NCBI GenBank assembly: GCA_025454475.1
Contig: JALOOJ010000077.1
Location: 1 to 36,597 of the forward strand
Reading direction: 5' to 3'
From: Anaerolineae bacterium
GTDB lineage: Bacteria > Chloroflexota > Anaerolineae > B4-G1 > SLSP01
Length of the DNA stretch: 36,597 nucleotides
The position numbers and the translations under genes are program-made. Numbering within the stretch: position 1 is the stretch's first letter; each line of letters begins with the position of its first letter. The notes beneath the pieces are model-generated. The model was not told the DNA's origin. It did no database searches and saw only the letters and a program-made list of their open reading frames with translations. Below are positions 2,552-31,641 of the stretch, in pieces.

Positions 2552-3571
2552 ATGGCATTCCCGGAACTTAGCGATGCCTGGCGCATCGCGCGCTTAGTCC
2601 CGCCCACGGGGCCAGTGGATATCGTGCTGGATACCGACACCTACAACGAGGTCGATGACCAGTTCGCTGTCGTCTACGCGCTGCTGTCGCCGGAGAAGAT
2701 CCGACTGCACGCACTCTATGCCGCGCCTTTTTTCAACAACCGCTCGAGTGGCCCTGCGGACGGTATGGAGAAGAGCTACGAGGAGATCCACCGGCTCCTG
2801 GACCGACTGGGGCTAGGAGGCGACGCCAAGCGTTCCGACGCCGTCTTCCGTGGTTCGACGCGCTACCTTGGCGGCCCTGAGGATCCGATGTCGCAGAAGG
2901 CCGCGAACTGGAGCCGGCGTGGCTCGGCGCATAGCCTCGGAAACCCTGAGCGTGCATGTGAGAGCGCGGCTGCGATGGACCTGATCGCGAGGGCTATGGT
3001 CCGATCTCCCGAGGACGCTCCCCTGTATGTTGCCACCATCGGGGCCATCACGAACGTGGCCTCTGCCATCCTTATGGAGCCGGAGATCATCAGAAGGATC
3101 GTGGTCGTCTGGCTGGGCGGCCACGCGTTCCATTGGCCCGACACGAAGGAGTTCAACCTCTGGCAGGACCCCGACGCGGCGCGCGTGATCTTTGATTGCG
3201 GCGTCCCGCTCGTCCAGATCCCGGTTATGGGCGTTTGCTCCCACCTGCACACGACTATCCCCGAGCTCGATGCCCACGTCGCCGGCCGCGGTGCTATCGG
3301 CGACTACCTCGCTGAGACTGTGCGCGGTTACCATAGCGATCACTTTGCCTGGTCAAAGGTGATCTGGGACATCTCGGCTATCGCTTATCTGCTCAATGAG
3401 TCCTGGACGCCCACGTCTCTCGTTCATAGCCCGATCGTGACGGAACAGGGCACGTGGAGCTTCGATGCCCGGCGCCATCTGATCCGCAGTGCTACCCACG
3501 TACACCGGGATCCGATCTTTGCCGATCTCTTCGCTAAGCTCGATCGGGCGAAGCCCGTCAGCCGGCGCTAG
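2552..3571 (+). CDS. Inosine/uridine-preferring nucleoside hydrolase family protein
   Basis: A 339-residue nucleoside hydrolase of the IunH fold, which splits N-ribosides into base and ribose through a bound calcium ion. The N-terminal Asp cluster DTDTYNEVDD (residues 27-36) is a variant of the usual DxDxxxDD calcium site, and the late WDISAIAYL contains the probable C-terminal Asp ligand. It is slightly longer than typical members (about 310-320). I chose the ATG at 2552, preceded by AAGGAGACGAGG. The open frame extends 99 nt upstream, but that part overlaps the dehydrogenase remnant and has no ribosome-binding site. It sits 13 nt after the dehydrogenase stop. In this cluster the substrate may be a modified riboside rather than a common nucleoside. 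Confidence 0.85.
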   Translation: MAFPELSDAWRIARLVPPTGPVDIVLDTDTYNEVDDQFAVVYALLSPEKIRLHALYAAPFFNNRSSGPADGMEKSYEEIHRLLDRLGLGGDAKRSDAVFRGSTRYLGGPEDPMSQKAANWSRRGSAHSLGNPERACESAAAMDLIARAMVRSPEDAPLYVATIGAITNVASAILMEPEIIRRIVVVWLGGHAFHWPDTKEFNLWQDPDAARVIFDCGVPLVQIPVMGVCSHLHTTIPELDAHVAGRGAIGDYLAETVRGYHSDHFAWSKVIWDISAIAYLLNESWTPTSLVHSPIVTEQGTWSFDARRHLIRSATHVHRDPIFADLFAKLDRAKPVSRR

Positions 3572-3575
3572 GACG

Positions 3576-4406
3576 ATGCCCATGATCGAGCGCCTGTTAG
3601 CACCACGCCCAGACCAGCCGATTGAGCCCGAAGCGCAGGCCACGGCTGACCGGATCGCATACGACCTTCGGCAGGTAGGCATCGCTGAGGGCGGCGTGCT
3701 CCTCGTGCACAGCTCGCTAAGCGCGATGGGCCACGTCCCGGGCGGGCCCGAAACCGTGATTCGCGGCCTCCTGAGTGCGCTCGGCCCCGATGGCACGCTG
3801 TTGATGCCCGCGCTTAGCTATGAGCGGGTGACGGAGAAGAACCCGCACTTCGACGTTCTACGCACGCCCTCCAATGTGGGCGCCATTCCGGAGGCTTTTC
3901 GCTTGAGGCCAGGTACTCAGCGGAGTGTGCACCCGACACATTCCGTCTGCGCCGTCGGGCCGCGGACCTCGGAGCTACTCGACGGACACGACAGCGACAC
4001 CACGCCTTGTGGCGAGGCCTCGCCCTTTCGCAAGCTAAGGGCCGTTGCCGGCCAGATTCTGATGTTGGGTTGTGGGCTTCGGCCCAACACTTCGATGCAC
4101 GCCATTGAGGAGCTCGTTCTGCCTCCCTACGTCTTTGGGTCCCTCCTCACCTACTCCCTGACCTACGCAGATCGGCACACTGTTGAGAAGTCTTACACAA
4201 CCCATGGCTTCGATGGCTGGGCGCAACGTTACGATCGCGTCGCTGGGGTTCTGGAGGCTCCAGCCCTACGCCAAGGGAGGGTCCTCGAAGCGCGGGTCCA
4301 TCTCATCCAGGCACGCGCGCTATGGGACGCAGTCTACGCCGCGATGGTCCGCGACCCACTCCGATTCGTCGATCCGGTGGCTCGAGCGTCCGAACACAGG
4401 AGGTAG
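3576..4406 (+). CDS. AAC(3)-fold N-acetyltransferase family protein
   Basis: A 276-residue protein of the Antibiotic_NAT fold (aminoglycoside 3-N-acetyltransferase/YokD family), which transfers acetyl from acetyl-CoA to an amino group. Family landmarks are [13 protein letters not shown] (45-57), the GPDGTLLMP strand (70-78), and [12 protein letters not shown] (117-128), which contains the conserved His. It starts 4 nt after the nucleoside hydrolase stop; ATG 3576 and ATG 3582 are both possible. Its place among sugar and nucleoside enzymes suggests it acetylates an amino-sugar-like metabolite. The fold alone does not show antibiotic resistance. Confidence 0.83.
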
Positions 4407-7293: not shown

Positions 7294-10101
7294 CTATCGC
7301 CCTCGCAACAAGCGCAACGCCAACACGATGTTCTCCGCACCCGGTGTCGGCAGCGACCTGGCCTCCCACTCCCCATCGCTAGTTCGGCTGAGGCTGCTGT
7401 CCGGCCTCTGGCGTTGCAGAGCCACCTCATCGAAGATAATCGTGTCCCTGACCAACCTCAGAGCGCCCTTGGTGAGATCGAGCCCCGTCTCGCTGCTAAA
7501 GAGCAGCAGATAGCCGTCAGGCTCGATCACTGTCTCGTTGGGGACCCTGTATGCCACCTGTGACCTGCCTCCGACGTCCGCGTCGGCGTCAACATCCAGG
7601 ACCCAGAGGCTGAGGTCAACCGGTTCTTCGGTGGGATTGTGGAGCTCGATCCAGGCGTCGCCCTCGTTGCGCACGCCATCGTGGTTCCAGTCCACGCGCT
7701 TAGGTGCCGACAGGATCTCATTGATGCGCACTAGCTCCGGCGCAGGCTCAGCGGTGGCTGTTGGCGTGGCCGTGGCCGTAGCAGTCGCCGTCGCCGTCGG
7801 CGTATCGGTCGGCGCAGCCGTTCCGACGGCCGTCGGCGTGGGAGTGGCGGTGGCTGTCGCCGTCGCGGTGGGCGTGGGCGTCTGCGTCGCCGTTGGCGGC
7901 TCCGACGTCCGCGTCGGCGTCGGCGTGTTGGTGGCGGTAGGCGTCGGCAATCCACCGATCCGCACGTAGTCCACCCGTGCCGAGGCATCACCCGCCGCCT
8001 CGTAGTACTCCACCACCAGCAGATGCGGCCCTGCCAGGAGCGCACGCTGCGCCTTGTAGACTCTATCGGCTGCACCCGCGTGCCACTCGTCGATCAACTT
8101 CTGCCCATCGACGGTCACGCGGATCCCGTCATCCGCGCTGACTGTAAACTCGTACACCCCAGCCTCGAGCGTCGCCGTACGACTCCAGCGGGCGGAGAAG
8201 TTGTCGGCAGGTAGCCCAACGTCAGGTGCGCCATTGCGCCAGTTGAAGTCGATCTTCACGTCATTGCGGACCAGAGCAGGTGCCCCGCTCAGCCCTACGT
8301 TGGCCCAGTACTCACCCTTCCAGTGAGTGTAGCTTGGCACGACCGGCTCCCAGTGCAGGCGCACCCGAGCCTGACCCACATTCTCGTAGGCTTCCAGGCG
8401 CAGGGCGTGCGCGCCGGCCGCGAGAGGGACATCGACGGAAAGCTCCCGCACAGCTCCATCACGCCACTCATCGATCACCAGCCGATCGTTGACCCACAGG
8501 CGCGCGCCGTCATCAACAATGACGTGGAAGCGATAGGTGCCCACGGCGAACTGGGCTGCACGTGTCCACCGCACCGAAAACCCGTCCACCGGGATCTGGG
8601 TTGCAGGTGAACCGGTGGCCCAGTCAAAGTCCAGGGTAACATCGTTGCGGACCAACACGGGCAGTCCCTGCAGCGAACGGTTGCTCCAGTATTCACCCTT
8701 CCAGTCAGGGTAGGCGTTGAGCCTCTCCCAGCTCAACTGGATCACGGCATCTCCGCTCGCATCGAAGTACTCCACGACTACGGTGTGATAACCCGCCGCC
8801 AACGCGACATCCGCGGAGACCTCACGAGCCGAGCCGTTAGCCCAAGCATCGATGATCCGTGTACCATCGACGAACACCCGTGCGCCATCATCCACAAGCA
8901 CGCGGAAACGGTAGGTGCCGGCGTCGAATGCCAGCGTCCGAGTCCACCGAACGGAGAACTTGTCGGCCGGGATGCCGGAAGCGGGCGCACTCTGACCCCA
9001 CACGAAGGTGATTGTGGCATCGTTGCGCGTCAAGCTAGGTGAACCGCTGAGCTGCGTATTACCGAAGTACTCGCCCCGCCACTGCGGGAAATCGCCCTGG
9101 CGCTCCCACCAGAACTGGACGCGCGCATTGCCCCAGAGTTCGTAGTAGGTAACGACGATCTTGTGGTCTCCCGCGTTGAGGGTGCGTTCGGCGGAATAGG
9201 TTACGGCCTGTGCGGCGTGCCACTCGTCGATGATCAGCTCACCGTCGACCCAGACTCTGACACCGTCGTCGGCTGTGGAATAGAAACGATAGGTCCCTGC
9301 GGCAAGCGAGACCGTCCGCGTCCAGCGGACGGAGAATCCATCGGCGAGAATGCCGGAGGCCGGCGGGTTGTTACCCCAGTCGAAGGAGAGCATGGGATCG
9401 TTCCGTACTACCGCCGGGTTGCCGGTAAGGCCCGGGGAATTGAAGTACTCCGCGCGCCAGCCAGTGATGGCGGGTGTCAACGTGGCCGCCGGCGTCGACG
9501 GCGTAGGACTGGACGTTGGCACCACAGGTGTCGCAGTCGGCGTTGGCGAAGCCGTGCTGACGGCCGTTGGAGTGGGCGTAGCCGTTCCGACGGTCGTGGC
9601 CGTGGGTACGGCCGTCGCTGCGGTGAGATAGACAACGGCATCGACCGTGGCCCGCGTGGCTGGTCCGGCCGCCTGCACCCGAACAGTGGCATACTCAGAC
9701 CACGGGCGGATCACGGGAATGCTCAGTGCCACCGTGAACATACCATCCTCGCTAACGGGCGCAGTCAAGAGGTCCGCCGCAGAACCTCCGCTTCCCGGAG
9801 GCGGGACGAGCCGTATCGTCACCACGTCGCCCGGCGCCCATCCCGTACCTTTCACTGTGAGAGGAGCGCCAACCCACGCTATGGGCGGGTCGACGCTTAT
9901 CGCCGGCCCAGGCGCGAGGATGGCGGTCTGCGTCGCGGTGACTGTCGGACCTGGCCAATAGCCCGTCGCACGCAAGACAAGCCTTACGAGGAAAAACCCA
10001 CCCAGCACCACTCCTGCAGCAACGGCTAGGGCCGCTCCCAGCAGCAGTCGCCGCTTACCGGGCGGTAGCGGCGCGGGCATATCGTTGATGACTTCGCTCA
10101 T
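7294..10101 (-). CDS. Membrane-anchored surface protein with four PA14 domains and a lamin-tail domain
   Basis: A 935-residue protein exposed outside the cell. It has a short basic N-terminus, one membrane segment (about 17-41), and a beta domain around 55-150 beginning near PPIAWVGAPLTVKGTGW. A Thr/Pro linker follows, then four PA14 repeats starting near residues 212, 340, 465 and 592, each opening with a W(R/K)(A/G)EY(F/W) motif. A second Thr/Pro/Ala linker (about 717-788) leads to a lamin-tail-type domain (VRINEILSAP to the end). PA14 domains usually bind glycans. I chose the ATG at 10101, preceded by GGGGAGGG; the frame is open 66 nt further upstream without a comparable site. It is 127 nt downstream of the aldo/keto reductase, so it may have its own promoter. 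Confidence 0.85.
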   Translation of the reverse strand: MSEVINDMPAPLPPGKRRLLLGAALAVAAGVVLGGFFLVRLVLRATGYWPGPTVTATQTAILAPGPAISVDPPIAWVGAPLTVKGTGWAPGDVVTIRLVPPPGSGGSAADLLTAPVSEDGMFTVALSIPVIRPWSEYATVRVQAAGPATRATVDAVVYLTAATAVPTATTVGTATPTPTAVSTASPTPTATPVVPTSSPTPSTPAATLTPAITGWRAEYFNSPGLTGNPAVVRNDPMLSFDWGNNPPASGILADGFSVRWTRTVSLAAGTYRFYSTADDGVRVWVDGELIIDEWHAAQAVTYSAERTLNAGDHKIVVTYYELWGNARVQFWWERQGDFPQWRGEYFGNTQLSGSPSLTRNDATITFVWGQSAPASGIPADKFSVRWTRTLAFDAGTYRFRVLVDDGARVFVDGTRIIDAWANGSAREVSADVALAAGYHTVVVEYFDASGDAVIQLSWERLNAYPDWKGEYWSNRSLQGLPVLVRNDVTLDFDWATGSPATQIPVDGFSVRWTRAAQFAVGTYRFHVIVDDGARLWVNDRLVIDEWRDGAVRELSVDVPLAAGAHALRLEAYENVGQARVRLHWEPVVPSYTHWKGEYWANVGLSGAPALVRNDVKIDFNWRNGAPDVGLPADNFSARWSRTATLEAGVYEFTVSADDGIRVTVDGQKLIDEWHAGAADRVYKAQRALLAGPHLLVVEYYEAAGDASARVDYVRIGGLPTPTATNTPTPTRTSEPPTATQTPTPTATATATATPTPTAVGTAAPTDTPTATATATATATPTATAEPAPELVRINEILSAPKRVDWNHDGVRNEGDAWIELHNPTEEPVDLSLWVLDVDADADVGGRSQVAYRVPNETVIEPDGYLLLFSSETGLDLTKGALRLVRDTIIFDEVALQRQRPDSSLSRTSDGEWEARSLPTPGAENIVLALRLLRGR
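7737..7951. repeat. Low-complexity Thr/Pro/Ala linker-coding repeat
   Basis: Imperfect short repeats rich in GCCGTCGC and GTGGC encode (on the minus strand) a Thr-Pro-Ala-Thr linker between the fourth PA14 domain and the lamin-tail domain. A shorter equivalent lies at about 9465-9627. Such stretches are prone to replication slippage, and the encoded linkers are potential O-glycosylation sites. Confidence 0.75.
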
Positions 10102-10214
10102 CTTGAGACCCTCCCCAGAATCGCTACTGTCTAGACGCCTCCAGGTGAGCGAATGTTCCGGCTGCACACATCCGGCCCATCAGAGCGGCGCCGGTGGCCA
10201 ACACCGTATCGTCG

Positions 10215-16307: not shown

Positions 16308-17570
16308 ATGGAAGCGACCGAAGAACTAGCGTTGGGCACCAAGTTCCGTGCACGCAGCAATGGCTATCTGGTTTTCCTCGTGATATTCATGGGCCTGGTC
16401 GCGGTCATGGACCAGTACATCTCGACTGTCAAGAGCACCGCCTTACCCTATATCATTGAGGAGTACGGCATCACCGCATCGCAGTTCTCCTGGAATGAGG
16501 CCGTCTACCTCATAGCCACCTTCTTCATCTTCCTGCTCAACGGGCTCAACGACATCATTGGTCGGCGCCTTTCTATCCTCGTGCTTGCACTGATGATGGG
16601 GCTGTCCTCCATAGCCATCGTGCTCTTCACACCCACATTCCAGTCTTTCATGATCTTCTATACCATCGCGATGTTCACGACGGTTTCGAATATGTGGACG
16701 ATCCCGATCAGCGAGGAGTCACCCGCAGAGAAGCGGGCCAAGTACGTTTCGCTCGTCTACGTCATCGGGCTGATCCCACTCCAGGCGCTACTGCCGCCCC
16801 TGCTGTTGAACGTCCTGAAGCTGGACTGGCGCTGGATGTACGGCGCGATGTTCGTGCTCATGCTGCCGCTGCTTGTGATGTGGCAGCACATGAAGGAGAC
16901 AGGGCGGTACAACCTGATCCGTCGACAACGCAACGAGGGCACCCTCAAGCGTCACCTTTTCGGCGTCGGTGTGATCAACCGCCGAGATCTACGGTATATC
17001 GCCATCTCCTCATCGATCTGGCTGGCGTGGCTCGTCTATTCCGTCCTCTACTACTGGGCGGGCTACTACTTCATGACCGTCAAAGGTTACACACTGTCAC
17101 AGTGGTCTCTCGTCCTCCTGGGGACACTGCTGATGGCGATGACGGGTGGTGTTGCCGCCGGGCGGATCATGGATCGGGTCGGCAGGAACACCGCGCTCGT
17201 CGCCGGGTGCGTGATCCTCGCGCTGCTCACGGTCGGCATCGCTCTGGCGGATGGCATCTTGCTGCCCATCGTCACCGCAGTCTCGGGCTTCTTCACCTCA
17301 TTCACCTACACGTGGATCGTGGTGTATGTGCCCGAAGTCTTCCCAACAGAGCGCCGCGGCGCCTGTATGGGATGGACCACAACCGTGGCCCGGGTCTCCT
17401 ACGTGTTAGGGCCGGCCCTCGCCGCGGTGCTGCTGAGAGTTTCGCCGACGATGGAGTGGTTCTGGGTCGCTGCAGGCGCCATTATACTGATCCCAATCGC
17501 GATCATCCTGGGCGTCAAGCCCTACGAAACCAAGATCAAGGAACTCGAGCTGATCGCGGTCGAGCGCTAG
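16308..17570 (+). CDS. Major facilitator superfamily transporter
   Basis: A 420-residue inner-membrane carrier with about twelve hydrophobic segments. The family loop between helices 2 and 3 is recognisable as LNDIIGRRLSI, and its counterpart in the second half as GRIMDRVGRNTA. A central cytoplasmic loop (about 195-225, rich in Arg and Lys) separates the two halves. The late VPEVFPTERRGACMG segment is a pattern common in sugar and aromatic-acid symporters. The ATG at 16308 follows GAAGAGGA. As first gene of the unit with SCP2, alcohol dehydrogenase and AOR, it probably imports the alcohol or aldehyde substrate, or a precursor. The substrate is unknown. Confidence 0.88.
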   Translation: MEATEELALGTKFRARSNGYLVFLVIFMGLVAVMDQYISTVKSTALPYIIEEYGITASQFSWNEAVYLIATFFIFLLNGLNDIIGRRLSILVLALMMGLSSIAIVLFTPTFQSFMIFYTIAMFTTVSNMWTIPISEESPAEKRAKYVSLVYVIGLIPLQALLPPLLLNVLKLDWRWMYGAMFVLMLPLLVMWQHMKETGRYNLIRRQRNEGTLKRHLFGVGVINRRDLRYIAISSSIWLAWLVYSVLYYWAGYYFMTVKGYTLSQWSLVLLGTLLMAMTGGVAAGRIMDRVGRNTALVAGCVILALLTVGIALADGILLPIVTAVSGFFTSFTYTWIVVYVPEVFPTERRGACMGWTTTVARVSYVLGPALAAVLLRVSPTMEWFWVAAGAIILIPIAIILGVKPYETKIKELELIAVER

Positions 17571-17571
17571 A

Positions 17572-17600
17572 GCCGGCAATCCCTGGAGACCCAGGCCGGC
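17572..17600 (+). other. Bulged hairpin in the MFS-SCP2 gap
   Basis: GCCGG (17572-17576) plus CCTGG (17582-17586) pair with CCAGG and CCGGC (17591-17600), leaving a 5-nt bulge and an AGAC loop. It begins right after the MFS stop and could adjust mRNA stability or read-through. It lacks a U-run. Confidence 0.4.
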
Positions 17601-17624
17601 ACGTTAGGCACTAAGGAGCCCACA

Positions 17625-18035
17625 ATGGCGATTCCCTTCCCGTCGGATTCATGGATTAAGGCACTCAGCGCCCACCTGAACGGCAGCGAATCCTATCAGA
17701 GATCCGCAGCGAACTGGGAGGGCGACTTCACCTTCGTTGTAGAGCCCGATGCCGCCTATGCGGATACCAGTTATCTGTATCTGGCGCTGAACCACGGCAA
17801 AAGCGCCGGAGGGCGGGCTCTCAACGTCCCGGACGAGGTCGTTACGGAGTACACGATCCGCGCACCCTATGGCACGTGGCGTAAGGTCGTCGAGGGAAAA
17901 CTCGATCCCATCCAGGGGCTGATGACCAAACAACTCAAGCTTCAGGGGAACATGATGATGATCATGCGCTACCCCAAAGCAGCTCAAGAGATCATCGCCT
18001 GCACCAAGTTGATCCCCACGGAGTTTCCCGGGTAG
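17625..18035 (+). CDS. SCP2-type sterol/lipid-binding domain protein
   Basis: A 136-residue stand-alone protein resembling the sterol carrier protein 2 fold, which holds a hydrophobic ligand in a beta-sheet tunnel. Visible support: a central five-strand pattern, the YTIRAPYGTWRKVVEG segment (about 75-90), and the ending motif LKLQGNMMMIMRYPKAAQEI (about 102-121), typical of the family's last strand and helix. It has no signal peptide. An AAGGAG site precedes the ATG. It sits between the transporter and the dehydrogenase, so it may carry or present a hydrophobic substrate to them; this is inference. Confidence 0.8.
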   Translation: MAIPFPSDSWIKALSAHLNGSESYQRSAANWEGDFTFVVEPDAAYADTSYLYLALNHGKSAGGRALNVPDEVVTEYTIRAPYGTWRKVVEGKLDPIQGLMTKQLKLQGNMMMIMRYPKAAQEIIACTKLIPTEFPG

Positions 18036-18086
18036 AGCCTATCCGCCCCAGATCAGACGCGCCATCGCGGCGAACGGAGGTGTACC

Positions 18087-19418
18087 GTGTGGTACTTCAC
18101 GTCTCCCCAGATCATCTTCGGAGAAGGCGCCCTCAGCGCGCTCGACGATCTGAAGGGCCACCGCGCGCTGATTGTCACCGACGGCACGCTGGTCAACCTC
18201 GGTCTAGTGGCCGTAGTTACAGCACACCTGGATAGGGCCCGCATAGCCTACGCCGTGTTCGACCGAGTGGAGCCCGATCCCAGCCTCGATACCGTGCGCG
18301 CAGGGTCAGCGGTCGCCCACAACTATCAGCCCGACTGGATTGTCGGCCTCGGCGGCGGATCGGCCATGGATGCAGCCAAGGCCATCTGGGTAACCTACGA
18401 GCATCCGGAACTCGACCCCGCGGAGATAAACCCCATCACTGAGCTGGGCCTGAGGAGGAAGGCGCGCCTGATCACGATTCCGACGACGAGTGGAACCGGC
18501 GCGGAGGTCACCTGGGCTATCGTTCTCACCGACACGGCGTCGGGCCGCAAGCTCGGCCTGGGGAATCGCGAGAACGTGGCCGATATCGCGATCGTGGATC
18601 CGAGCCTCGCCGTGGGTATGCCGCGCTACCTTACTATCGACACCGGGCTCGATGCCCTCACCCACGCCATCGAGGGCTACACGTGTACGTGGCACACGGA
18701 TCTGACCGACGGCATCTGCCTTCAGGCTACGCGCCTGGTTCTTGAGTACCTCCCGCGGGTCGCCGTGGACGGCAAAGACCTGGAGGCACGTGAGCGCATG
18801 CACAACGCGGCCACGCTCGCGGGGTTGGGCTTCGGAAACGCCCTCGCCTCGATGGCGCACGCCACAGGCCACGCGATAGGCGCGCGCTTCCACGTGCCGC
18901 ACGGCAGAGCGGTCGGCATGATGTTGCCATACACCATCGAGTACATCGCTGCAGAAGCGCCCGAGCGATTTGCGGACGTGGGAACCACGATCGGACTCGA
19001 AGCGGGTACACCTCACGCCTCCGCTCGCGCCCTGGCCGATCATCTACGGTCCTTTTCCCGCGGGTTGGGCCAGGCCACGTCTGTCGCCGAGATGGGCATC
19101 AGTTGGACCGATTACGAGGCAGCCCTCGAGCAGCTTGTCGACGACGCGTTCAACGACGCCTCGATCATGACCGCCGCTCGAGCCAGGGTACCTGGGCACC
19201 ATCCTCCGCGTAGACCTGACCGAGGGCCGAGTTTGGGTCGAGCCTCTCAATCGTGCCTACGCGCATGCCTTCATCGGCGGCAGCGGGCTGGCGGCACGCT
19301 ATATGCTCGACATTCTGGATGGGCCCGAGCGGATCAATGTCGATCCACTCGGGCCCGACAACCCTCTGATGCTGATGACAGGCCCCGTGGTCGGCACGAG
19401 CGTGCCTTCTGCGGGTAG
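18087..19418 (+). pseudogene. Iron-containing alcohol dehydrogenase, C-terminus lost
   Basis: Group III (iron-dependent) alcohol dehydrogenase that interconverts an alcohol and aldehyde with NAD(P). It has GGGSAMDAAK (89-98), PTTSGTGAE (132-140), metal ligands Asp189, His193, His258 and His272, and catalytic His262. Homology runs to about residue 366 (FNDASIMTAAR). The frame then reads out of phase through the first 230 nt of the AOR gene and ends at 19418. The family's last helix of about 15-20 residues is missing. The start is GTG at 18087 with GGAGGT upstream. Most of the active site is intact, so a partly functional protein with an artificial tail is possible, as is an assembly deletion. 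Confidence 0.85.
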
Positions 19419-21012
19419 GTTCAGCGTCTGCGCCCTGTCGCCCCTCACCAGGATCTGGGGTGAGGCCAACTCGGGGGGCTTCTTCGGCCCCGAACTACGC
19501 TTCGCCGGCTACGACGGCCTCATCGTCACCGGCATCGCCCCATCCGCCACGTGGCTCTCGATAGTCGATGGCGACGCCCAACTCAGGGATGCCGCGGAGC
19601 TCTGGGGACTCGATACGTACGAGACACAGACGCGAGCCCGCGCAGTCCTTGGCGATTCCCGCGCGCGCGTTGTATGCATCGGCCCGGCAGGCGAACACCT
19701 CGCCAAGATGGCTGCAATGATCAATGACCACGGACGGGCTGCAGGAAGGACCGGGATGGGCGCTGTGATGGGCTCCAAACGGCTGAAGGCCATCGCCGTC
19801 CGCGGCTCGGCCCAAGTCCCGGTCGCCGACGCAGAAGGCTTACGCGTGGCTACCCGAGACATCCTCCGTCTGACCAACGAGGATATGGCTGCTCTCTCAC
19901 TGCGGATGGCAGGCACCGCCGGGTACTGGGACATGGGCATGATGTATGGCGATACGCCTATCCGCTACTTTCAGCAGGGCGAGTGGGACTCGGCGGGCAA
20001 TCTCTCCGGCGTGACGATGGCCGAAACGTACCAGAACCGCAACGTCGCGTGCTACCGCTGCCCAATCGCGTGTGGTCGAGAGACCCGCGCCCCGCGCTAT
20101 GGCCTGGATAGGGTCGATGGGCCCGAGTACGAGACCGTCGCCGCGCTCGGATCACTCCTGCTCATCGACGATCTGGAGGCCGTGATCTACGCCGGGCATC
20201 TTTGCAACGCGTATGGGCTCGACACGATCAGCACTGGCGTCACCATCGGCTTGGCGTGTGAGCTCACGGCTCGTGGCGTGCTGACACCGGACCAGGTCGG
20301 CGGACTGGACCTCGCATATGGGAATCCTGCCGTGGTTCACCAACTCATCCCGATGATCGCTCGGCGCGAGGGACTCGGCGCCCTCCTCGCCGAAGGGTCA
20401 CAGGCCGTCGCCGAAGCCTTTGGCGTCCCTCACCTCGCTGCGACCGTCAACGGTCTCGAGGTACCGATGCATGACGCCAGAGCCTTCAGCGGAATGGCGG
20501 CAGTCTATACGCTGTCGCCCCGCGGTGCGTGCCATATGCAGGGCGACATGTATGGCGTAGACATCGGCCAGGGACCACCCGTCGAGCTTGGGGTCGTGCC
20601 AGGCGACCGCTTTGAGAGCAGCGAGGAGAAGGGGCACACCTCGGCGCGCCAGATGGCATGGCGAAGCGTCTACAACGCGCTGACTCTCTGCCAGTTCCAG
20701 AACCCCGGCCCGGAGCCGCTGACCCGCGCGCTCAACGCCATCACGGGCTGGGCGCTCGCGCCCGAGGACCTGCTGACCATCGGCAAGCGTATCCTCGCCC
20801 TGAAGCGCCTCATAAACCTACGGTGCGGTCTGATGCGGAAGGACGAAAAGCTGCCACCACTTCTCACCAAGCCCCTCGATGGCCCAACCGACGGCTTCGT
20901 GCCCGACCAACTACCGCTCATCACAGGGGCTTACGCCGAGCTCGGTTGGGACCTGGACACCGGTCAACCATCTGCGGACACCCTCAGTACCCTCGGCCTT
21001 GAGCCCGCGTGA
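19303..21012 (+). CDS. Aldehyde:ferredoxin oxidoreductase, tungsten type (start codon lost)
   Basis: A tungstopterin enzyme that oxidises aldehydes to acids and reduces ferredoxin. From ATG 19303 it has 569 residues, but family-like sequence begins earlier, at GYLGTILRVDLTEGRV near 19186. Between the in-frame stop at 19168-19170 and 19303 there is no ATG, GTG or TTG. The 4Fe-4S ligands are Cys250, Cys253 and Cys257 (CYRCPIAC) and Cys463 (LCQF). The pterin-binding segments such as GRAAGRTGMGAVMGSKRLKA are present. Starting at 19303 would remove the first beta strands, so activity depends on whether the upstream break is real. It is paired with the alcohol dehydrogenase for alcohol-to-acid oxidation. 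No pterin-synthesis gene is in the window. Confidence 0.88.
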   Translation: MLDILDGPERINVDPLGPDNPLMLMTGPVVGTSVPSAGRFSVCALSPLTRIWGEANSGGFFGPELRFAGYDGLIVTGIAPSATWLSIVDGDAQLRDAAELWGLDTYETQTRARAVLGDSRARVVCIGPAGEHLAKMAAMINDHGRAAGRTGMGAVMGSKRLKAIAVRGSAQVPVADAEGLRVATRDILRLTNEDMAALSLRMAGTAGYWDMGMMYGDTPIRYFQQGEWDSAGNLSGVTMAETYQNRNVACYRCPIACGRETRAPRYGLDRVDGPEYETVAALGSLLLIDDLEAVIYAGHLCNAYGLDTISTGVTIGLACELTARGVLTPDQVGGLDLAYGNPAVVHQLIPMIARREGLGALLAEGSQAVAEAFGVPHLAATVNGLEVPMHDARAFSGMAAVYTLSPRGACHMQGDMYGVDIGQGPPVELGVVPGDRFESSEEKGHTSARQMAWRSVYNALTLCQFQNPGPEPLTRALNAITGWALAPEDLLTIGKRILALKRLINLRCGLMRKDEKLPPLLTKPLDGPTDGFVPDQLPLITGAYAELGWDLDTGQPSADTLSTLGLEPA

Positions 21013-21612: not shown

Positions 21613-23085
21613 TCACCACCGGGCTTCCCAAGTTGCATCTGGGTCCAGTGGATACATCGGCCTGCTGACCCGCCGGTACTCGAGCTGCGTCACGTCGCAG
21701 TTGGTCACACCAGGGCTGATCGCCAGGATCGAGCGCGGACTGATGGCCTCCAGCGGCGACGTGAGGTAGCCCCGTTTGGGCACGACGATCTTATAGGCCA
21801 GCGGATCGATCCCCAGGCTCTGGAATTGCGCGGGCTCCTCGTAGCTGTGGCGCTCGGACGTGACGATGATATCTACCCCATCTACCGTGAGCACAATTGT
21901 TGTGCCCCGATGAACCAGTCGGTGTGGGTCGCGAACGCCGCCTCGGTAGTAGCTGCCGTCACTGATCAACCGCACCCGGCCCGTCACAGCGAGCGGCTTC
22001 CCGTGCTCCGTGTCGAGCTTACCGCCGAGCGAGACGCTCACCTTCTGGCCCACGCCGGCTGCGATACATGCTTCGACTGCCGCTGCGTCCCAGATAGAAC
22101 CCACGACGACGTCCGTCGCTCCATGCGCCAGCAGACTCGCGAGCACCGAGGTGACATCGGTCGTGCCGCCTGCACCGGGGTTATCACCTGAGTCGGAGAG
22201 GAACACGGTCGTCTCTGCCGCAACCATCGCCTTCTCCACCGCCTCATCAATGGGATAGGCCTCGGTGCCAAAGTCAAAGTCCGCACGCCGGTCCCAGAAG
22301 ATCGATGCCAGTCGATTCGCCTCCGACTGAGCCAGTGCCGCATCGCCATCGGCCACGACCACCGCAGCCACGCCAATGTCGGGGACATCGGCCCAACAGT
22401 GACCATTCATAAGCGACGCCGATACTATCTCGGGCCTACGCTCCAACTCAGCAACCAGGCGCATCATCTCGCCCATCGTGCCAACCGTGTCCTGTGCCTT
22501 CTCGCCCGGCAGTAGGAATGGGATCTTGGCGAAGCCCGTCGTCAAATGCCGGCGTTCCTTGAGAATCTGCAAAAGCATCGACGCGGCCTTCTGCCCGGTC
22601 TCATAGGCGTCAACGTGCGGCGCCGTGTGGTACGCCACCATCGCGTTGACGACCTGCGCCGTCTCACGGACTATGTTGGCGTGCATGTCGAGCGCAGCCA
22701 CGATCGGCGCTGACGCTCCGAGTTTCTGCCTCAGCTCACGCAGGACCACGTTTTCGCAGTAGTCCACGCCCTCAGCACGCATCGCCCCATGGAGGTAAAG
22801 GCACGCTCCGTCCACATCGTGGGCCTGCTCGAGGATCCTGTCCTTGAGAGCCTCGAATGTCACGCGCTCTACAACGCCGCCGGGCATAGCATGCGCTGTA
22901 ATGGTTGGCACTAGCTCTACGTTCGGTGACTGCTCGAGCGTCGCGACGATGCCCGCGAAGGCGCCTCGCCGATTGGATGGGTTGAGCGTCTCCGCGCCAT
23001 ACCGCGGGCGGAAGTCCGCCAGCCGCGTCAGGAACGGCGTGAATGTGTTGGATTCGTGGCCGAAGCCACCTACCAGGATACGCAC
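21613..23085 (-). CDS. M81 family metallopeptidase (MlrC-like)
   Basis: A 490-residue zinc protein of the M81 family, named after MlrC, which opens linear microcystin peptides. Typical motifs are GHES (9-12), LHGAM (98-102), DMHANI (133-138), HTAPHVD (153-159) and the later SDSGDNPGAGG. The start is GTG at 23085. It shares one base with the stop of the upstream gene (TAGTG) and has GAGGTGG upstream. The frame is open 78 nt further, but that part lies within the neighbour. Bacteria without microcystin often carry this family beside transporters and amidohydrolases, so the substrate here is likely another small peptide or amide. Confidence 0.9.
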   Translation of the reverse strand: MRILVGGFGHESNTFTPFLTRLADFRPRYGAETLNPSNRRGAFAGIVATLEQSPNVELVPTITAHAMPGGVVERVTFEALKDRILEQAHDVDGACLYLHGAMRAEGVDYCENVVLRELRQKLGASAPIVAALDMHANIVRETAQVVNAMVAYHTAPHVDAYETGQKAASMLLQILKERRHLTTGFAKIPFLLPGEKAQDTVGTMGEMMRLVAELERRPEIVSASLMNGHCWADVPDIGVAAVVVADGDAALAQSEANRLASIFWDRRADFDFGTEAYPIDEAVEKAMVAAETTVFLSDSGDNPGAGGTTDVTSVLASLLAHGATDVVVGSIWDAAAVEACIAAGVGQKVSVSLGGKLDTEHGKPLAVTGRVRLISDGSYYRGGVRDPHRLVHRGTTIVLTVDGVDIIVTSERHSYEEPAQFQSLGIDPLAYKIVVPKRGYLTSPLEAISPRSILAISPGVTNCDVTQLEYRRVSRPMYPLDPDATWEARW

Positions 23086-23912
23086 TATGCCACCTCGTCC
23101 CCAAACGTGACCTGCGTCCAACGCTCGGGGATGTGCATGTTGATAGTGCCGTGCCTGTTCCACGACCAGTCGACGGAGACATTGCTGCCATCCGCGTCGT
23201 GGAAGTGCTGGCAGCGCGATGCTCCGATGCGCCAGACGTCGCCGGACTTGGGCGGTGTATTCGAGTTGCCCAGCGCCTTTAACCCCTCCCAGGGAAGTGC
23301 AAACTCGACGGTCCAGCCCTTGTCTACGATCTCGGGGCAGTTCAGGCTCCCGTCAACCTGAACGGCATGTCTTAGCCCGGGCAGCTCCCACGCCTTCTCG
23401 CCGATACGGCCCAGCCGCTCGTTCATACGCGGGAGGAAATAGAGGAAGTCCTCGACAGAGAAAAAGGCGTTCAGGCGCTCCACGTCACGACGCTCGACCA
23501 CGGGCGCCAGCCAGGTCCAGAACACCTCGTAGATGGTGTTGATGGGGTTGACGCCCAACTCGTAGTACACGCCGTTGCCGTCCACAAAGATCTCGGCATC
23601 GCTGTCATTGTGGTAGACGTGGTCGTGGTGCTCGACATGCGTCCCCCAGATCTCGTGGTCTTCGTACCGGTACGCTGCATAGAGATAGGTGTCGTCCCAT
23701 ACCAACGCGATCCGGGAGTCCAGCGAGACCGGTGCGCCAGTATCCATCTTCACAAACGGCGCGGACCAGGTCACCCGCTGCCACACAGGCTCATTCAGCT
23801 TGCCGTCGACCACGATCGGCTCTGCCGTTCGCAGGCAGCGATACGTCGCCACGGGAGGCAAACCATCCAGCGGGCCCTCGGGTAGGTTCAGAGTTCGGGG
23901 CATCTTGATCAT
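23085..23912 (-). CDS. Carbohydrate-binding (CBM9-like) domain protein
   Basis: A 275-residue protein with one beta-sandwich domain of the CBM9/DOMON-like type. It opens with the signature IVVDGKLNEPVWQRV (about 33-47), followed by ALVWDDTYLYAAYRYED, and later WTVEFALPWEGLKAL. In such proteins this fold binds sugar ends or haem. No signal peptide is evident, so it may be cytoplasmic, which is uncommon for carbohydrate binding. I chose ATG 23912 with an AGGAG site. The frame stays open into the ligase gene without another site. It is coupled to the M81 gene by a 1-nt overlap. Function in this operon is unknown. Confidence 0.78.
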   Translation of the reverse strand: MIKMPRTLNLPEGPLDGLPPVATYRCLRTAEPIVVDGKLNEPVWQRVTWSAPFVKMDTGAPVSLDSRIALVWDDTYLYAAYRYEDHEIWGTHVEHHDHVYHNDSDAEIFVDGNGVYYELGVNPINTIYEVFWTWLAPVVERRDVERLNAFFSVEDFLYFLPRMNERLGRIGEKAWELPGLRHAVQVDGSLNCPEIVDKGWTVEFALPWEGLKALGNSNTPPKSGDVWRIGASRCQHFHDADGSNVSVDWSWNRHGTINMHIPERWTQVTFGDEVA

Positions 23913-28928: not shown

Positions 28929-28959
28929 CTCAACTGCAGTGCTTTCTTCTGAGTCCTTT

Positions 28960-31641
28960 ATGCAGATAATCCTGACGCACGAGAACGCCGACTTTGACGC
29001 GATCGCCAGCCTGCTGGCAGCGCATCGGCTCTATCCTGGCGCGCTTCCTCTGCTGCCGCACCGCGTCAATCGCAACGTAATGGCATTCCTCTCACTTTAC
29101 GGTCCTGGGCTCCCATTCCTTCAGCAGGACGAGCTGCCGCGTGCACGCGCCGTGCAGCGCGTGATACTGGTCGATACCGCCAAGCTCACACCAGTGCGTG
29201 GCGTCGACCCGGTCGACGCACAGGTCCTGGTCATCGATCACCACCCCACACCCGAAGTATCACAGCCGGCGTGGCAATTCCAGGTGGAGGCGCTGGGCGC
29301 TACGACGACGCTGCTCACCGAGGCAATCTCGACCCGGCTTGTCCCGATCTCGCCCGCGGAAGCCACGCTGATGCTCGCCGGGATCTACGAGGATACTGGT
29401 AACCTGACGTACGCCTCGACAACTCCCCGCGACCTTCGGGCGGCAGCATGGCTGATCGACCAGGGTGCGGATCTGGAAATCGCGAACGAGTTCCTTGAGC
29501 ACCCCCTCACTCCAGCGCAGCAGGCCATCTACGAAAGCCTGGGCGCTCATATGGAGACGCTGGTGATCGGCGGTCATCCCGTGATCCTGAGTTGGGCGGT
29601 GTCGCCGCCGGACACCGAGGAGGAGATCTCGACGCTCGCCCACAAGCTGCGCAACCTCCTTGAGCCAAGCGCACTCTTCATCCTGGTGCAGATCGGCGGC
29701 AATGTGCAGATGGTCGCTCGCAGCGCCACCGATGACATCAACGTCGCCGCAGTGGCAGAGCGCTTCGGCGGCGGCGGCCACGATCGTGCGGCCGCTGCGT
29801 TGATTCGCAATCAGTCGGCCTTTGGCCTGGCTAACGAGCTGCGTGACTTGCTTCCCGGTTTTGTGCAGCCTCGGGTCAAAGTGCGCGATCTGATGTCCCA
29901 CGGCGTGCGCACTGTTGCCCCCGACGAACCTGTTGAGCAAGTCGCGAAGCAGATGCTGCAGACCGGCCACGAGGGCTTTCCTGTTGTCGACAGTGCTAAC
30001 CAGGTCGTCGGGCTCATCACCCGTAATGCAGTCGACCGGGCGACGCAGCATCGCTTGCAGGGCCACGCGGTTCGAAGGGTCATGCAGCCCGGATCCGTCA
30101 CCGTCTCGCCCGATGATTCTGTGGAACACGTCCGGGCGCTGATGATCCAGACCGGTTGGGGGCAGATCCCTGTAACGCAGGATGGTAGCCTAATCGGCGT
30201 GGTCACCCGCACCGATATGATCCGGCTGTACGCAACTCCCAGAAACGCCGAGAGGCAGCGTATCGCCCACCTGATGGAGCAAGCGATTGCCGCTCCCTTG
30301 CTCAGCCTTATCCGCAGGATCGGCGCGGAGGCTGCTGAGACCGGCTCCGTGATCTACTTCGTCGGTGGTCTCGTCAGGGACCTTCTCCTTGGCCAAGACA
30401 TCGTCGACGTCGACCTCGTCGTCGAGGGTGATGCGATCGATCTGGCGCGCACGATGTCCGAGCTCTACGGCGGCGATGTCCGAAGCCACGCGCGGTTCGG
30501 AACCGCCAAGTGGCTGCTTCCAGACGACATATGGGAAGCTGTCGGCCGTGACACACACCGCGCAGATAGGCCGGATGCCGAGAGGCAGGGACGCAGTGGA
30601 CGCGGAACGCTGCCCTCGTTCATCGATATGGTGACCGCGCGAACCGAGTTCTACGAGCACCCCACCGCGCTGCCTATGGTCGCCCGCAGCTCGATCAAGC
30701 AGGATCTTCACCGTCGCGATTTCACCATCAACACGCTTGCGATCCGCCTGGATCCCCAGCAATGGGGCGAGATGCTCGATTTCTACGGTGGTCGGGCCGA
30801 CCTGGAGTCCGGCATCATTAGGGTGCTGCACAGCCTTAGCTTCGTGGACGACCCCACGCGCATTCTGCGAGCGGCGCGGTTCGAAGCCCGTCTCGGGTTT
30901 CGGATCGACGAACGCAGCGCGGCCCTGATCTCTGAGGCGATCCCTCTGCTTGGCCGCATCAGCGGCGAGCGCATCCGTCACGAGCTGGATCTCATCTTCC
31001 AGGAGGCCCGGCCCGAGGACGCGCTGGACCGTCTCGAGTCGCTGGACGTTCTCAGAGAGATATGCCCCGGACTGGTCAGTGATACGTGGCTAGCCGAGCG
31101 GTTCGCCAAGCTGCGCGAGTCCTTCGATGGCAACCTGTGGGACATAGACCTGTCGACTACACGGCATGTGCTGTATTGGGCGCTCTTCACCCACAGGCTT
31201 GAGGAAGGCATGTTCGAATTCCTTCGACAACAGCTCAGGCTCCCGTCTCACCTGGCCGAGCTCCACGCCGAGCAGGCTTCGCTGCGCGAGATGCTGGCGT
31301 TGCTTGCCCCCACCGAGAGCCCTGGAGAGATCGCGGTTAGATTGGACTGCTTCGCGCTTGAGTCGCTGGCGCTGGCTTGGCTCACGACGGATGACCCCGG
31401 CTTGCAGGACAGACTCACGACCTACGCTCGAACGTGGCGCCACGTGGAGGCACACCTGGACGGCGACGATCTCAAGCGTCTGGGGTTCAGACCCGGCCCA
31501 CTCTTCCGCGAGATCCTTCAGGGCCTACGCGTGGCTCGGCTGAACGGCGCACTCCGCACCCGCGACGAGGAAATCGCGTGGGTGACGACGCGCTTCACCC
31601 CAGACGCCACGCGCTCGACGGCATCGACGGAGGCAAGATAG
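28960..31641 (+). CDS. DHH phosphoesterase-CBS-CBS-CCA/poly(A) nucleotidyltransferase fusion
   Basis: An 893-residue multidomain protein, most likely acting on tRNA 3' ends. Order: DHH/DHHA1 phosphoesterase (1-300: NADFD 9-13, VDTAK 71-75, DHH 93-95, GGGGHD near 270), two CBS domains (306-365 and 369-425), and a class II nucleotidyltransferase head with GGLVRD (469-474) and DVD (483-485). RRDFTINTLA (585-594) and the RNA-binding helices follow, with RILRAARFEARLGF near 640. A roughly 25-residue insertion, Arg/Asp-rich, precedes the third head strand. CBS domains usually bind adenosyl nucleotides, so activity may respond to energy state. I chose ATG 28960, which starts exactly at the family N-terminus (MQIILTHENADFD). 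The next gene begins 2 nt later. Confidence 0.9.
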   Translation: MQIILTHENADFDAIASLLAAHRLYPGALPLLPHRVNRNVMAFLSLYGPGLPFLQQDELPRARAVQRVILVDTAKLTPVRGVDPVDAQVLVIDHHPTPEVSQPAWQFQVEALGATTTLLTEAISTRLVPISPAEATLMLAGIYEDTGNLTYASTTPRDLRAAAWLIDQGADLEIANEFLEHPLTPAQQAIYESLGAHMETLVIGGHPVILSWAVSPPDTEEEISTLAHKLRNLLEPSALFILVQIGGNVQMVARSATDDINVAAVAERFGGGGHDRAAAALIRNQSAFGLANELRDLLPGFVQPRVKVRDLMSHGVRTVAPDEPVEQVAKQMLQTGHEGFPVVDSANQVVGLITRNAVDRATQHRLQGHAVRRVMQPGSVTVSPDDSVEHVRALMIQTGWGQIPVTQDGSLIGVVTRTDMIRLYATPRNAERQRIAHLMEQAIAAPLLSLIRRIGAEAAETGSVIYFVGGLVRDLLLGQDIVDVDLVVEGDAIDLARTMSELYGGDVRSHARFGTAKWLLPDDIWEAVGRDTHRADRPDAERQGRSGRGTLPSFIDMVTARTEFYEHPTALPMVARSSIKQDLHRRDFTINTLAIRLDPQQWGEMLDFYGGRADLESGIIRVLHSLSFVDDPTRILRAARFEARLGFRIDERSAALISEAIPLLGRISGERIRHELDLIFQEARPEDALDRLESLDVLREICPGLVSDTWLAERFAKLRESFDGNLWDIDLSTTRHVLYWALFTHRLEEGMFEFLRQQLRLPSHLAELHAEQASLREMLALLAPTESPGEIAVRLDCFALESLALAWLTTDDPGLQDRLTTYARTWRHVEAHLDGDDLKRLGFRPGPLFREILQGLRVARLNGALRTRDEEIAWVTTRFTPDATRSTASTEAR

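Follow-up and report, generated by a model that had tools for sequence, protein, structure and literature searches.

The stretch of DNA analysed here (hereafter "the window") comprises 36,597 nucleotides of contig JALOOJ010000077.1 from an Anaerolineae bacterium (Chloroflexota; assembly GCA_025454475.1), designated C205 here, in a metagenome-assembled genome of 369 contigs and 4.8 Mb (G000). It carries on its + strand a copy, damaged at one junction, of a conserved cassette of three genes, which encode a small SCP2-fold protein, an iron-containing alcohol dehydrogenase (ADH) and a protein of the aldehyde:ferredoxin oxidoreductase (AOR) family. We propose, with a probability of about 0.6, that this cassette converts hydrophobic primary alcohols, be they long-chain fatty, branched or isoprenoid, into carboxylic acids by oxidation, with SCP2 as carrier, a prediction drawn from sequence and gene context. 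The SCP2-fold protein, a putative hydrophobic-substrate carrier of 136 aa, is encoded at 17625..18035 (PF02036, 39.8 bits for a cut-off of 21.3); the ADH follows at 18087..19184 (PF00465, 6e-47; PF25137, 2e-46), 51 bp further on, and the AOR occupies the frame 19171..21012 (PF02730, 1e-73, 247 bits; PF01314, 6e-108, 362 bits). All three genes, as well as the transporter gene upstream, are on the + strand and score above the curated Pfam cut-offs. The window fits our definition of the cassette, its AOR belonging to the SCP2-linked clade described below and its SCP2 lying upstream on the same strand.

The cassette SCP2-ADH-AOR is conserved. One genome per species was scanned with an SCP2 alignment, which returned 215 relatives, and the best 80 of the 215 were kept. 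The nearest named relative by SCP2 comes from a metagenome-assembled genome (MAG) called Thermoflexales, also in Chloroflexota; the hosts of the 80 loci are mainly Chloroflexota, with several named Bipolaricaulota or Atribacteria and four Thermoplasmata. The arrangement SCP2-ADH-AOR was found in 46 of these loci, SCP2-AOR in 3, and SCP2-ADH without a nearby AOR in 12; the rest were SCP2-ADH reaching a contig end (9), SCP2 with neither enzyme (8) and cut loci (2). Among the loci that are not truncated by a contig end, ADH and/or AOR thus lie downstream of SCP2 in 61 of 69. Gene order and strand are kept in the 46 complete loci, with median gaps of 55 and 128 bp. The survey of SCP2 beside AOR in other genomes that the preliminary description of this DNA had proposed bore out the association, with a conserved order and strand across Chloroflexota and several Bipolaricaulota/Atribacteria MAGs.

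It should be borne in mind that these 80 loci were selected by SCP2 similarity. As an unbiased counter-sample, 251 genomes evenly drawn from the phylum were searched separately for SCP2 and for close AORs. SCP2 was present in 21/21 genomes with an AOR of the clade, as opposed to 27/230 of the others (Fisher p about 1e-17), an association well beyond what chance would give. For 20 of the 22 clade AORs of this sample, an SCP2 gene lies on the same strand no more than 3.4 kb upstream; the exceptions are those of G068 and G056. SCP2 directly abuts the AOR in 11 of these 20 linked cases, leaving no space for an ADH. At locus L227, an AOR, an AdhE-like fusion of aldehyde dehydrogenase (ALDH) and ADH, SCP2, an ADH and a second AOR were found in a single stretch.

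In a tree of 102 AORs, built by a quick method in which the position of long-branch rows is uncertain, all 46 SCP2-linked AORs fall within one clade of 61 (support 100). When AORs were fetched independently of SCP2 and had room upstream, SCP2 was linked to 14/22 clade members and to 0/36 AORs outside the clade. Fifteen positions set the clade apart, including an invariant Asp at position 452 (Pyrococcus furiosus numbering), four residues from the active-site His448; C288, C291, C295 and C494, which bind the 4Fe-4S cluster, as well as E313 and H448, are kept in the window AOR and in all 46 linked AORs. The metal is presumably tungsten, as in the family. P. furiosus AOR (1aor) is the top solved match of the window AOR (414 bits); the two share both AFOR domains, homology over their full length and the conserved Fe-S and active-site residues, but the cassette AORs branch apart in a clade of their own, which has distinctive positions and is linked to SCP2 and, in many cases, to an ADH. 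D338N and D489N, considered as clade-specific changes of the pterin site, were rejected as they are frequent in other AORs too. Selenocysteine was likewise rejected for the AORs of G024 and G049, in which TGA codons had been flagged, as an open frame spans the query to at least residue 600 before the stop.

The AlphaFold2 model of the window SCP2 is confident (pLDDT 93.8), and its top Foldseek matches are the structures 2cx7 and 1wfr of Thermus thermophilus SCP2 (TM-score normalised by the query, 0.82-0.83); this protein (TT1886) has the same fold (TM 0.82), belongs to the same sequence subfamily (E 1e-26) and is about 32% identical to the window SCP2. Both the profile score and the fold, thus, place the window protein in the SCP2 family. 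Lower-ranked matches include human and yeast SCP2, UbiJ, and the SCP2-like domain of alkyl sulfatases, among them 2cfz, which was solved with 1-dodecanol. The genome has four PF02036 matches, and only the window SCP2 adjoins an AOR. The closeness to T. thermophilus SCP2 and the lipid-binding nature of the fold bear on an alternative idea, namely that the cassette acts on a small or aromatic alcohol, and that its SCP2-fold protein buffers aldehydes in general or partners another protein instead of carrying lipids. P. furiosus AOR does accept small and aromatic aldehydes, and the model matches of the cassette ADH and of the ALDH that may stand in for the AOR are short-chain and aromatic enzymes; we, nonetheless, regard this idea as rather improbable, given the fold and the recurrence, near SCP2, of genes for long-chain ligases, acyl-CoA dehydrogenases, patatins, a cholesterol-oxidase-like GMC oxidoreductase and an alkyl sulfatase, which are detailed below.

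SCP2 also persists at loci where ADH or AOR is swapped for an enzyme of the same reaction type. At locus L172, a GMC oxidoreductase takes the place of the ADH (SCP2-GMC-AOR); among NCBIfam models it matches cholesterol oxidase best (564 bits, under the cut-off of 850), and its top solved relatives are cholesterol oxidases as well. Four of the four named Thermoplasmata loci whose genomes lack an AOR have the order SCP2-ADH-ALDH-GMC, no AOR being found in any of these four genomes. Of 150 genomes drawn evenly from this class, 34 have a window-type SCP2, and among 20 further Thermoplasmata loci ADH, ALDH and/or AOR adjoin SCP2 in 17, with ALDH in 13 and the SCP2-ADH-AOR arrangement in one. In Haloferax mediterranei, plasmid pHME132 (L251) carries in a single stretch an alkyl sulfatase, a major facilitator superfamily (MFS) transporter, an ALDH, a Zn-ADH, a distant SCP2, a long-chain acyl-CoA ligase and an acyl-CoA dehydrogenase, a candidate surfactant or fatty-alcohol pathway. 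No enzyme is shared by all these contexts; what they have in common is SCP2 together with alcohol and/or aldehyde oxidation, suggesting that it is the substrate that links them.

These swaps also bear on two other roles for SCP2. It could be a maturation factor or a subunit of this AOR subfamily (or of its ADH), in agreement with the single clade that holds all SCP2-linked AORs and with the frequent abutment of the two genes. SCP2 is, however, kept with ADH and ALDH in archaea devoid of AOR, with AOR where there is no ADH, and with GMC and AOR at L172, which makes such a role very unlikely; the narrower version of an AOR-only chaperone is disfavoured by its persistence in the archaeal genomes without AOR. 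Alternatively, SCP2 could have an unrelated lipid or quinone role and owe its linkage to a horizontally transferred neighbourhood. UbiJ is an SCP2-fold protein of the quinone pathway, and in genus g15 (L109, L113, L124 and L126) the window-type SCP2 adjoins DUF1015, ABC1 (UbiB-like) kinase and patatin genes instead of ADH and AOR. Against this, the linkage is tight and co-directional and is found repeatedly, in two domains and several phyla, with replacement enzymes that are not homologous; the passive transfer of one neighbourhood would not give such a pattern, and we find this last explanation hardly credible. No quinone biosynthesis gene of the UbiJ-type context was found beside the window SCP2, and an ABC1 kinase is near SCP2 in the g15 loci only.

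Some neighbours of the cassette are related to lipid metabolism. At L233, a FadD-like ligase lies immediately 3' of the AOR; ligases near the cassette score above the cut-off of the long-chain-fatty-acid-CoA ligase model at L137 and L141; acyl-CoA dehydrogenase and thiolase genes are upstream of SCP2 at L145 and L147; and patatin phospholipases adjoin the cassette or SCP2 at L074 and L173. At five loci (L101, L103, L108, L110 and L112), the gene directly 5' of SCP2 encodes a family of about 680 residues with no Pfam match above cut-off, and at L100 and L107 a second uncharacterised family (about 660 aa) is found in this place. At L233, the order SCP2-ADH-AOR-acyl-CoA ligase is followed by an FrhB/FdhB protein with a 4Fe-4S domain, a possible outlet for reduced ferredoxin.

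In the pathway that we propose, the lipid pocket of SCP2 would, judging from its fold, hold a poorly soluble alcohol, aldehyde or acid. The iron-containing ADH would convert the alcohol to the aldehyde with NAD+, and the AOR would oxidise the aldehyde to the acid with reduction of ferredoxin, as expected from their respective families; the AOR step, strongly exergonic, would pull the uphill ADH step and limit free aldehyde. The acid could then be converted to acyl-CoA and enter beta-oxidation, genes for which are near the cassette in some relatives. The preliminary description had read SCP2 with ADH and AOR as a pathway with a hydrophobic substrate: the linkage survey, the retention of SCP2 through enzyme swaps and the acyl-CoA ligase, acyl-CoA dehydrogenase and thiolase genes near a minority of loci all speak for it, except for the transporter that it counted as a member.

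AOR and ADH being reversible in principle, the cassette could also run in the opposite direction, the AOR reducing a fatty or isoprenoid acid with reduced ferredoxin, the ADH making the alcohol and SCP2 carrying the product, for example in lipid alcohol synthesis. The resemblance of the ADH to the reductive AdhE domain would fit this direction, as would the lack of beta-oxidation genes in most neighbourhoods. On the other hand, the enzymes that replace the AOR in Thermoplasmata (an NAD(P)-type ALDH with an adjoining GMC) and the ADH at L172 (GMC) are normally oxidising enzymes, and the ligase and acyl-CoA dehydrogenase neighbours indicate breakdown; we therefore consider this direction unlikely.

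Several observations weigh against the oxidation of hydrophobic alcohols that we favour. Ligase or beta-oxidation genes are near a minority of cassettes only. The ADH is nearest to the AdhE and lactaldehyde-reductase types, which are short-substrate enzymes; for the ALDHs of Thermoplasmata, the highest-scoring models, though below cut-off, are those of betaine and phenylacetaldehyde dehydrogenases. SCP2-fold proteins can also bind other ligands, such as quinone precursors in the case of UbiJ, and the Haloferax SCP2 is just 28% identical to that of the window. Finally, the linkage has its exceptions on both sides: eight clade AORs with upstream room have no linked SCP2, and eight of the 80 close SCP2 relatives have neither enzyme adjacent.

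Each of the component families is known. As a conserved unit with enzyme swaps, the cassette appears to be undescribed in the open-access literature searched. We found no description of an SCP2-AOR association in open-access full texts, which omit most subscription journals. The interconversion of alcohols and acids by AOR and ADH is known in acetogens and other anaerobes, and involves the same two reaction types as the cassette; an SCP2 partner is not described for it in the open-access literature searched, whereas the loci described here unite SCP2, ADH and AOR in a conserved cassette. In AorABC systems, an AOR is flanked by small Fe-S and FAD subunits. The window AOR corresponds to the catalytic subunit of AorABC of Aromatoleum but has no adjacent AorA-like Fe-S or AorC-like FAD subunit, its neighbours being the ADH upstream and YjbQ/UPF0047 downstream. 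A parallel in gene content is pHME132, with a predicted catabolism of alkyl sulfates and long-chain alcohols, which likewise has SCP2 alongside an alcohol dehydrogenase and an enzyme that oxidises aldehydes; it differs by its non-homologous Zn-ADH, its NAD(P)-type ALDH and the absence of AOR.

Genes of the AOR family are plentiful in uncultured anaerobes, mostly without an assigned substrate. The carrier-linked subfamily offers a definite class of substrates to be tested for one large clade of AORs, and hints that lipid alcohols of buried organic matter could supply anaerobes with reduced ferredoxin; the small SCP2 subfamily could serve as a genomic marker of hydrophobic-alcohol oxidation in bacteria and archaea. 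A broader scheme, which we put forward as a tentative possibility, is that of a single SCP2 subfamily supplying hydrophobic alcohols to enzymes that oxidise alcohols or aldehydes and can replace one another; the version with the tungsten AOR would be a route by which fatty or isoprenoid alcohols (membrane-lipid debris) are oxidised anaerobically, with a yield of reduced ferredoxin, in Chloroflexota of sediments and hot springs and in other lineages.

The copy of the cassette in the window is damaged at the junction of ADH and AOR (19180..19187), where a segment found in relatives is absent. The ADH frame lacks a stop where one is expected and continues out of frame, in unrelated sequence, to 19418; that of the AOR, open from position 19171, has its earliest ATG/GTG/TTG at 19303, within the N-terminal domain AFOR_N. 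In related loci, exactly 33 residues separate the FND/LND motif of the ADH from its stop in 39/39 cases (28 distinct sequences), and the junctions inspected consist of the ADH stop, an intergenic stretch and then the AOR's own start. Compared with these relatives, about 22 C-terminal residues of the ADH, its stop and the AOR start are all gone, such that the window contains neither a complete AOR reading frame with a start codon nor a complete ADH C-terminus, the latter being present in the relatives compared. The defect is either a small real deletion or a short segment dropped by the assembly, and the window's copy, as written, may be non-functional. Our account of the biology of the cassette therefore rests on the intact relatives. 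Upstream of the junction, the GGGS motif and the metal-ligand positions D189/H193/H258/H272 of the ADH are intact, and both the N- and C-terminal Fe-ADH domains are matched. The nearest solved relatives of this ADH are the ADH domains of AdhE, and its second-best homologue within the genome is 33% identical to it.

The preliminary description had grouped a fourth gene in the same unit, the MFS transporter at 16308..17570 (+ strand; PF07690, E 1.6e-31), which ends 54 bp before SCP2. The unit holds for SCP2, ADH and AOR, but not for the transporter, which we consider a neighbour and not a member of the cassette: no homologue of it was found near the cassette in the 119 related loci scanned, and in four genomes (G012, G017, G019 and G021) its orthologue and SCP2 are on separate contigs. 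A different MFS gene is found 3' of the AOR at L115, L123 and L138. The unit is flanked in the window by an amidase gene upstream and by YjbQ/UPF0047 downstream, on the opposite strand; the window's YjbQ is also 3' of the cassette in a genome of the same genus (G001).

The genome has about 10 AOR-family matches over eight contigs; on C235, two AOR-type genes, one on each strand, lie about 0.5 kb apart. Elsewhere in the window, an aminoglycoside 3-N-acetyltransferase family protein (3489-4406) adjoins GFO/IDH/MocA oxidoreductases, and a large protein at 7294-10167 has a lamin-tail domain and four PA14 stretches. An M81/MlrC-type protein is encoded at 21613-23163, with a weak match to the microcystinase MlrC model (168 bits for a cut-off of 999), and at 28939-31641 DHH/DHHA1, CBS and poly(A) polymerase/CCA-adding domains are fused in a single protein.

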